Source: Curtobacterium flaccumfaciens (GTDB lineage Bacteria; Actinomycetota; Actinomycetes; Actinomycetales; Microbacteriaceae). Taken from it: a DNA stretch of 64,000 bases. The position numbers and the translations under genes are program-made. This document shows, in pieces, positions 62,674 to 64,000 of this stretch. The DNA is taken from contig CP121450.1 in the NCBI GenBank assembly GCA_029689965.1, positions 1,426,001 to 1,490,000 of the forward strand, in the 5' to 3' direction. Under the pieces are notes generated by a model. It was not told where the DNA came from and searched no databases. It saw nothing but the letters and a program-made list of their open reading frames with translations. Within the stretch, counting starts at the first letter, position 1. Each line of letters starts with the position of its first letter.

Positions 62674-63663
62674 ATGACCGCCGTCTCGGACCTCGTCGCC
62701 GTCGTCGACCGCCTGCTCGCACCCTCCGGGGGCTGCGTGTGGAACCGGGAGCAGACCCATGCGTCGCTGGCGCGGTACGCGGTCGAGGAGTCCTACGAGC
62801 TGGTCGACGCGATCGACTCCGGGGACGACGGCGAGCTGCGGGAAGAGCTCGGCGACGTCCTGTACCAGGTGGTCCTGCACGCGGGGCTCGCGGACTCCTT
62901 CGACCTCGAGGACGTCGCGGCCGGCGCCCGGGACAAGATGGTCCGTCGGCATCCGCACGTGTTCGGCGACGAGCGGGCGGACACGGTCGAGGACGTCGTG
63001 CGGGTCTGGCGTGCAGCGAAGGCTGCCGAGAAGTCCTCGCGACGGAGTGTGTTCGACGGCGTGCCGCACGCGATGCCGCCGCTCGAGCGTGCAGTGAAGC
63101 TGCTGGAGCGACTGGAGGAACGCGGAGACGCCGACGCTGTCGTCGCGTCGGTCGTGGCGGACGCCGGGGATGCCGTGGGTGCAGGTGCAGGTGCAGGTGC
63201 AGGTGCAGGTGCAGGTGGGCGCGCGGATGCGGGCGCCAGCGCTACTGCGGATGCGCGTGCCGGTGCGGGTGTCCGCGCTGGTGCGGGTGTCGTCGATCCG
63301 GGGTGGGGAAATGAGGTGCTCGCGATGATCGCTCGGGCGCGGAACGCCGGTGTCGACCCGATCGCGAGCTTGCGCGCGTCCGTCGCAGGCCTGGAGGCGG
63401 CGGGTCGCGCGAGTGAGCGAGCGCAGCGTGCGCAGCGCATGTGGAGGATGCAGCAGCTTGTGTCGTCGCTCCGGAAAATGCGGGCGTCCCCCAACCCGAA
63501 AAAGGAGGACGCCCGCGAGCGGGCCGACGGCACCACCAGGGATAGAGGTGCCGTCAGGAAACCCGCTCGAACCGCGGGGCACACTGCAGCACGTTGCCCA
63601 CGCGATCGGTTCAGCGGATGGATCAGGCACCCGCCGAACCGAAGTTCTGAATCCAGCATATGA
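62674..63663 (+). CDS. mazG: MazG nucleotide pyrophosphohydrolase
   Basis: All-alpha NTP pyrophosphohydrolase. The MazG domain is clear: GGCVWNREQTHASLARYAVE, then the metal motif EESYELVDAI and EELGDVLYQVVLHA, and a second block (DKMVRRHPHVFG). A glycine/alanine linker encoded by (GGTGCA)6 at 63178-63213 precedes the last helix (NEVLAMIARARNAGVDPIAS). The open frame runs to 63663, but its last 80 codons cross the hairpins at 63480-63641 and include rare codons, so the true end is probably near 63416 with a small indel. CACGAT (62662-62667) may be a leaderless -10 box. Confidence 0.85.
   Translation: MTAVSDLVAVVDRLLAPSGGCVWNREQTHASLARYAVEESYELVDAIDSGDDGELREELGDVLYQVVLHAGLADSFDLEDVAAGARDKMVRRHPHVFGDERADTVEDVVRVWRAAKAAEKSSRRSVFDGVPHAMPPLERAVKLLERLEERGDADAVVASVVADAGDAVGAGAGAGAGAGAGGRADAGASATADARAGAGVRAGAGVVDPGWGNEVLAMIARARNAGVDPIASLRASVAGLEAAGRASERAQRAQRMWRMQQLVSSLRKMRASPNPKKEDARERADGTTRDRGAVRKPARTAGHTAARCPRDRFSGWIRHPPNRSSESSI
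63178..63213. repeat. Hexanucleotide repeat (GGTGCA)6 inside mazG
   Basis: Six perfect GGTGCA units encode alternating Gly-Ala. Unit loss or gain keeps the reading frame and only changes linker length. Confidence 0.9.
63480..63641 (+). ncRNA. Candidate structured RNA or terminator cluster upstream of hisS
   Basis: Three consecutive hairpins. H1: GCGGGCGTCC (63480-63489) with GGACGCCCGC (63507-63516), perfect, 17-base loop. H2 abuts H1: outer GAGCGGG (63517-63523) with CCCGCTC (63562-63568), inner GACGGCACC (63526-63534) with GGTGCCGTC (63547-63555), asymmetric internal loop CC/AGGAAA and 12-base terminal loop. H3: CGGTTCAGCGG (63607-63617) with 63631-63641, one mismatch. Could be the mazG terminator, a hisS leader or an independent small RNA; strand is assumed. 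No known RNA family was recognised. Confidence 0.45.
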
Positions 63664-63702
63664 CCAGTTCGCCGCCCGCGCAAGTCCACGACGTCGATCT
63701 GC

Positions 63703-63708
63703 CAGAAT
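63703..63708 (+). promoter_or_regulatory. Possible leaderless -10 box for hisS
   Basis: CAGAAT ends six bases before the hisS ATG at 63715; weak match but the same spacing as at other genes in the window. Confidence 0.35.
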
Positions 63709-63714
63709 CGACGC

Positions 63715-64000
63715 ATGGCTTCGACCGTGACGGCTCCCCGTGGCATGCGCGACTTCCTCCCGGCCGACAAGGCCCGGCGCGAGCACGTGCTCGGCGTGAT
63801 CCGCGGTGTGTACGCCCGACACGGGTTCGACGAGATCGAGACGCCGGTCGTCGAGGACGCGTCGCGCCTGCACTCGGGCCTCGGCGGTGACAACGAGAAG
63901 CTCGCGTTCGCGGTCATGAAGCGTGGGCTCTCCACCGAGGACCTGCAGCGGGCCGAGGTACCGCTCGACCTGGCCGACCTCGGACTCCGGTTCGACCTGA
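63715..64000 (+). CDS. hisS: Histidyl-tRNA synthetase, partial
   Basis: N-terminal 95 residues of a class II synthetase; runs off the right edge. The opening APRGMRDFLPADKARREHVL and motif 1 region GFDEIETPVVEDASRL are diagnostic, followed by LGLRFDL leading to motif 2. Charges tRNA-His. ATG 63715 (MASTVTAPRG); no ribosome site is visible, in line with a leaderless start. Confidence 0.92.
   Translation, partial: MASTVTAPRGMRDFLPADKARREHVLGVIRGVYARHGFDEIETPVVEDASRLHSGLGGDNEKLAFAVMKRGLSTEDLQRAEVPLDLADLGLRFDL

Follow-up and report, generated by a model that had tools for sequence, protein, structure and literature searches.

What kind of element fills the gap between mazG and hisS in Curtobacterium flaccumfaciens, and to which strand does it belong? 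In the 64,000-nucleotide stretch analysed here (the window), several hairpins crowd together where the mazG frame loses its coding character. A sequence-only reading of these letters had proposed a possible new structured RNA, acting as a hisS leader, a small RNA or a compound terminator. We compared the locus within the genus, across the family and more widely, and weigh these readings below.

Hairpins and fold of the element

The three stems of the sequence-only reading are indeed present in the window (Table 1). H1, our hairpin P4, is a perfect 10-bp stem; H2, our P3, begins one base after it, its outer and inner stems joined via an asymmetric 2/6 internal loop; and 73 bases separate the third stem, our P1, from the hisS ATG at 63715. 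The fold contains a fourth hairpin, P2, that had escaped that reading. The plus strand folds at -94.8 kcal/mol, compared with a shuffled mean of -63.1 (z -7.6), and the minus strand at -111.5 kcal/mol (z -8.7), further from chance than the plus strand.

Table 1 Features of the mazG–hisS region, in window coordinates
Feature	Coordinates	Strand	Remarks
mazG open frame	62674..63663	+	runs through the RNA here; homologous end near 63416 (by sequence reading)
Structured small RNA gene, predicted transcript ~169 nt	63480..63648	-	covariation over 58 sequences; G-U versus A-C strand counts; covariance-model matches in relatives
Hairpin P4 (H1), probable RNA 3' end	63480..63516	-	stem 63480-63489 with 63507-63516; loop UUUUUCGGGUU at 63493-63503; 6/12 pairs changed on both sides
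Hairpin P3 (H2)	63517..63568	-	outer stem 63517-63523 with 63562-63568, 3/8 pairs changed on both sides; asymmetric internal loop; inner stem 63526-63534 with 63547-63555, 6/6 pairs changed on both sides
Hairpin P2	~63574..63603	-	loop GUGCUGCA invariant (58/58 copies); 2/5 pairs changed on both sides
Hairpin P1 (third stem)	63607..63641	-	loop UGAUCC nearly invariant; 8/12 pairs changed on both sides
-10-like box of small RNA, TATGCT	63655..63660	-	TG one base upstream in 50/58 copies
-35-like box of small RNA, TTGCGC	63678..63683	-	TTGC invariant (58/58); 17-base spacer
-10-like box of hisS, CAGAAT	63703..63708	+	TG one base upstream; 6 bases before ATG
hisS, histidyl-tRNA synthetase start, runs off window	63715..64000	+	

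Of 56 same-genus loci tested, the window's is the only one where the mazG frame runs through these hairpins: the gene stops short of the element in 50, and in five its stop lies in roughly the initial 15 bases. The window's assembly is scored as 65.5% complete, and read-through would fit a small upstream indel or assembly noise. Single-base indels and pair-keeping changes among 58 aligned copies likewise mark the element as not protein-coding. Within mazG, a tandem GCAGGT repeat at window positions ~63180-63216 encodes a Gly-Ala run, a linker that is variable among relatives.

Conservation and covariation within the genus

The element lies ahead of hisS in all 60 Curtobacterium genomes examined. 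A similarity search against 99 relatives, with positions 63400-63720 as the query, detected the region in genomes of the genus and usually returned matches that begin at the base of H1 (query ~73-83, window ~63472-63482), the best copies extending to hisS. At 59 loci, the window's included, the hisS start, mostly MATTVTAPRGMRD, directly follows the element, one of these loci (L044) being cut by a contig end; the sixtieth copy (G051) was found with a covariance model and sits between mazG and hisS.

Aligned on the minus strand, 58 of the 60 copies (alignment A2, which leaves out L044 and G051) give a consensus of 43 pairs, 25 of which carry changes on both sides, compared with an average of 14.9 in shuffles. 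Paired cells amount to 97.1% (88.4% in shuffles), cells changed on both sides number 238 (68 in shuffles), and the score is 0.335 versus 0.166, a level reached by none of 500 shuffles. Every helix contains pairs changed on both sides (Table 1). Sliding the pairing partners by 1-3 columns reduces paired cells to 43-46%, a comparison that favours the unslid structure, which was derived from A2 itself, and sequence kinship inflates counts of this kind; the size of the effect nevertheless makes these two factors an unlikely explanation of the covariation. Compensatory changes among relatives, the evidence for which the sequence-only reading had proposed to look, are present genus-wide.

The P4 loop has a distribution of its own. 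Of 25 same-genus genomes, 23 contain its 12-mer exactly once and two lack it; the 12-mer is always on the RNA strand at the mazG-hisS locus, and a reversed control pattern had no match in the same 25 genomes. The perfect complement of the loop, TTTTTCGGGTTR, considered as a possible target, had no second copy on either strand of these genomes. Beyond the genus, the loop core UUCGGGU is kept across genera.

Strand, promoter-like sequences and the relation to hisS

Read on the minus strand, the structure contains 178 G-U cells and 26 A-C or C-A cells, and a plus-strand reading swaps these roles; because the minus strand was also the one used for predicting the structure, the count is tilted in its favour, and one pair adjacent to the P4 loop supplies 35 of the 178. 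These counts point to the minus strand for the RNA. The predicted 5' end follows from promoter-like sequence on that strand, and the 3' end is set at the base of P4. The spacer between the -35-like and -10-like boxes is 17 bases in 54 of 58 copies and 18 in the other four, and all 58 share A and T at positions 2 and 6, respectively, of the -10-like box. Because the boxes are weak by consensus, with TTGCGC agreeing with TTGACA at three of six positions and a generic promoter scan reporting none, the case for this promoter rests on conservation.

On the opposite strand, a -10-like box with an upstream TG stands 6-7 bases before the hisS ATG in 58/58 copies (CAGGAT in 28, CAGAAT in 18, other variants in 12), and the hisS mRNA is thus probably leaderless. 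The hisS transcript should therefore not include the element, barring transcriptional read-through from mazG. These observations bear on the proposal that the element is a cis-regulatory leader of hisS, acting as an attenuator or in a riboswitch-like manner. Its constant position directly before hisS in the genus speaks for such a leader, but the G-U counts favour the opposite strand, the promoter-like sequence of the RNA is directed away from hisS, hisS has its own -10-like box close to the ATG in every aligned copy, and in many other-genus loci a tetR or ferritin gene separates the element from hisS. We therefore reject the leader, to which we assign almost no probability: judged at the sequence level by strand counts and the hisS box, the element is not in a same-strand 5' untranslated region. 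The alternative of a small RNA survives with its strand changed, minus rather than the one originally considered.

P4 as a possible terminator

Without invoking any regulatory RNA, a bidirectional or compound terminator that separates mazG from a convergent transcript would account for some features of the locus. H1 follows shortly after mazG in most same-genus loci and also follows mazG in other genera; being strong and GC-rich, this hairpin could serve transcription from either side, and its minus-strand tail in the window is AUUUUC. A conserved U-run after P4 was not found, however, the tails of relatives being mostly ACUCUC- or UCUCU-like. A generic terminator scan found none, and it allows only loops of 3-8 bases, which places H1 out of its reach. 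A terminator has no need of a single-copy, invariant loop, of conserved and covarying hairpins P1, P2 and P3, or of conserved promoter-like sequence. A simple terminator is rejected on the single-copy loop 12-mer and the lack of a conserved U-run, and the earlier suggestion of a compound terminator falls short of explaining that 12-mer and a loop core kept across genera; termination with no regulatory RNA thus seems to us an improbable account of the whole element. Termination by P4 may still be one of the RNA's jobs.

Occurrence in other Microbacteriaceae

A nucleotide search with the whole element across the family produced matches in 10 of 199 genomes: three same-genus copies at the mazG-hisS locus, and matches of ~27-41 bases in seven other genomes, which we took as chance. 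Covariance models were needed for this reason. The full model, R1, matched 30 of 398 family genomes, 20 of them outside the genus. Thirteen of these 20 loci have both mazG and hisS, one (L085) has mazG only and one (L091) hisS only; the remaining five (L094-L098) are weak matches (E 0.0019-0.0067) near neither gene and were treated as chance.

A model of P4 alone, R3, matched 52 of the 398 genomes, under 16 of 85 genera. R3 misses same-genus P4 copies, its sole match in the genus (in G051) being off the mazG-hisS locus, so the 346 genomes with no R3 match cannot be counted as lacking the RNA, nor can the RNA be taken as ubiquitous. Thirty of the matched loci (L099 and L124-L152) were examined in detail; mazG is present at 27 and hisS at 27, and each locus has at least one of the two. 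Order-wide, R3 matched five of 396 genomes, all from other families and with no hisS, mazG or tetR in the ~1.5-kb flanks, and we treated these as chance; this sample also included some Microbacteriaceae genomes, which gave no R3 match.

A scan with a P4 pattern through one genome per species (84,980 species) found 38 loci, 33 with mazG, 30 with hisS, 29 lying between both and 34 with at least one of them. Carriers include Salinibacterium, Rhodoglobus, Frigoribacterium, Homoserinimonas, Lacisediminihabitans and Terrimesophilobacter, as well as Leifsonia and Cryobacterium metagenome-assembled genomes (MAGs). The four off-locus matches, in Calothrix, a Pseudomonadales MAG and two Microbacterium, also have complementary arms. 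In Microbacterium, loci L182 and L192 have similar flanks and a P4-like hairpin whose loop is ATTCGGGTT, but neither lies by mazG or hisS; they represent either a different locus or chance.

Within 200 nt 5' of P4, 31 of the 34 mazG/hisS loci have a second CGGG motif (TCGGGTAA, TCGGGAAA or CCGGGTAA), flanked in 29 of the 31 by a stem of at least 5/6 pairs. Twelve other-genus loci, hand-picked from the 30 R3 loci for a similar RNA type (alignment A6), share a P1 in which GAUCGGGUAA is invariant, a middle hairpin whose CUG...CCAG arms are conserved, and then P4; 15 of the 32 pairs in A6 show changes on both sides. The P1 loop is UGAUCC in Curtobacterium versus CGGGUAA elsewhere, and three of the 34 loci have no CGGGUAA-type loop; because of these differences, homology across genera rests mainly on P4, on hairpin order and on position. 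With homology judged in this way, an RNA family appears to be present in many Microbacteriaceae, its common core being a 5' P1 and a 3' P4 with a UUCGGGU loop. At L151, two tandem hairpins at ~1450-1531 both contain the loop region ATTCGGGTTGAG, which gives the impression of a duplicated P4.

A divergent TetR-family gene and a recurrent ferritin gene

At 25 of the 30 other-genus loci examined in detail, a TetR-family match lies on the hisS side of the RNA and on the hisS strand, divergent from the RNA; no TetR-family gene is present at L124, L135, L136, L150 or L099, the last of which has a ferritin gene on the hisS side. Pfam backs the TetR assignment weakly: of three proteins searched, one clears TetR_N (25.9 bits, cut-off 24), another falls slightly short of it (23.5 bits) and the third falls slightly short of a TetR C-terminal model (26 bits against a cut-off of 27.4).

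Between the RNA and tetR, 17 of 26 tetR loci contain an operator-like repeat, TAAC[GA]NNTGTT or AACANN[CT]GTTA, and nine do not. By eye, the repeat often falls within the putative promoter region of the RNA. It was found at none of 16 further loci that lack tetR and at none of 57 same-genus loci (0/73 together), and the shuffled expectation is at most 0.03 per group; these counts skipped identical regions and loci with no recognisable P4 loop upstream, and the 16 include G051. Because the motif was first picked by eye, the contrast with tetR-less loci is the stronger part of this result, and it carries the caveat that the tetR-less loci also belong to different genera.

In Curtobacterium, the window included, no tetR gene is present at the mazG-hisS locus. 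A distant TetR match exists elsewhere in 12 of 13 same-genus genomes, with 28-43% identity, and we did not judge it an ortholog that had relocated. In the window's own genome, such a relative (L158; G000:C1:3347545-3348045) has 34% identity to the TetR of an other-genus locus.

Several genera have a ferritin gene at their mazG-hisS locus, placed to one side of the RNA or the other. Those at L187:6238-6765 and L194:977-1504 are confirmed by Pfam, and those at L191:5377-5901 and L142:675-1202 were judged from the likeness of their translations.

Comparison with known RNAs

Rfam families match none of six same-genus loci at gathering score and none of seven even when E values up to 0.1 are allowed; the best sub-threshold match at the element is istR, at 20.3 bits against 45. 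The sequence-only reading had seen no T-box, SRP, tmRNA or RNase P signature, and these scans agree; the SRP RNA of the window's genome is located elsewhere. No match was found in phage or plasmid collections, and a mobile element was dropped as a candidate. Genus-wide covariation, together with the empty Rfam result, bears out the proposal of a new structured RNA.

Could the element instead be an already known actinobacterial RNA, for example Ms1/6S or 6C, that has diverged in Microbacteriaceae? The 6C RNA (RF01066) is actinobacterial and has two hairpins with repeated, conserved loop motifs, a likeness to the present element, but its loops are C-rich, compared with CGGG here. A 6C search put none of seven genomes over the cut-off; weak matches in two of the seven were at other places, and none was at this site. 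Ms1 is longer and has a large central bubble. Like the RNA proposed here, Ms1/6S is a stand-alone structured small RNA of Actinobacteria with a conserved gene neighbourhood, according to PMC9130861. There Ms1 is reported to be widespread in Actinobacteria, and the string 'Microbacteri' is absent from its main text; Microbacteriaceae might thus hold an unrecognised Ms1. That source also describes the Ms1 gene as adjoining a HAD hydrolase gene, however, and this description sets it apart from an RNA flanked by mazG and hisS. With Rfam and 6C searches finding nothing at the element and SRP RNA placed elsewhere, we consider a divergent known RNA very unlikely.

In searches of titles and abstract openings, we found no paper on a small RNA at the mazG-hisS locus of Microbacteriaceae and no description of this RNA-TetR pair, and no paper was found that combines mazG, hisS and a small RNA. 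Small RNAs transcribed under a divergent repressor are a general class. The present family resembles that class in many genera, where a candidate operator occupies the RNA promoter region beside a divergent TetR-family gene, and differs from it in Curtobacterium, where the locus has no TetR gene. By kind, the element would be one of the small RNAs that a repressor probably controls; the family to which it belongs appears to be new.

Discussion

Taken as a whole, the locus is best explained, and we think with high probability, by a structured non-coding RNA that stands alone, is ~170 nt long and is encoded on the minus strand, belonging to a Microbacteriaceae family that is probably repressed by TetR in many other genera. 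Its structure, strand, conservation, synteny, promoter-like boxes and linkage to TetR are all supported at the level of sequence. The RNA would start near 63648 from its own predicted sigma-70-type promoter, which, together with the divergent promoter of leaderless hisS, would occupy the 66 bases in front of the hisS ATG, and would end at P4, convergent with mazG, to be released as a free transcript. In other genera, the divergent TetR-family gene and the operator-like repeats in the shared promoter region suggest that the RNA is probably repressed by TetR, where TetR is present, and released by a signal. Once made, the RNA could act in trans through its exposed conserved loops, either by base-pairing with mRNAs or by binding a protein; pairing of the P1 loop UGAUCC with the 3' end of 16S rRNA is a further conceivable contact. 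In Curtobacterium, with no TetR gene at the locus, the RNA would keep only its promoter.

More broadly, we can imagine a two-gene module, a picture that is possible but doubtful when all of its parts are taken jointly. A family-wide TetR-type sensor would be paired with a divergent effector RNA carrying CGGGU in its P1 and P4 loops. Release of the repressor would flood the cell with the RNA, which would then pair with ACCCG-bearing targets or titrate a loop-binding protein. Some lineages, including Curtobacterium, would have lost the repressor and changed their P1 loop, leaving the RNA constitutive or otherwise controlled. The recurrent ferritin gene hints at an iron or oxidative signal.

For the locus itself, the present analysis corrects two likely misreadings, in which mazG is extended through the RNA or the element is taken for a hisS leader. 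The Microbacteriaceae are a large actinobacterial family whose members live on plants, in soil and in the sea. With strand, promoter-like sequence, structure, loop motifs, fixed position and a candidate regulator in hand, the expression of this RNA, its control by TetR and its targets are directly testable.
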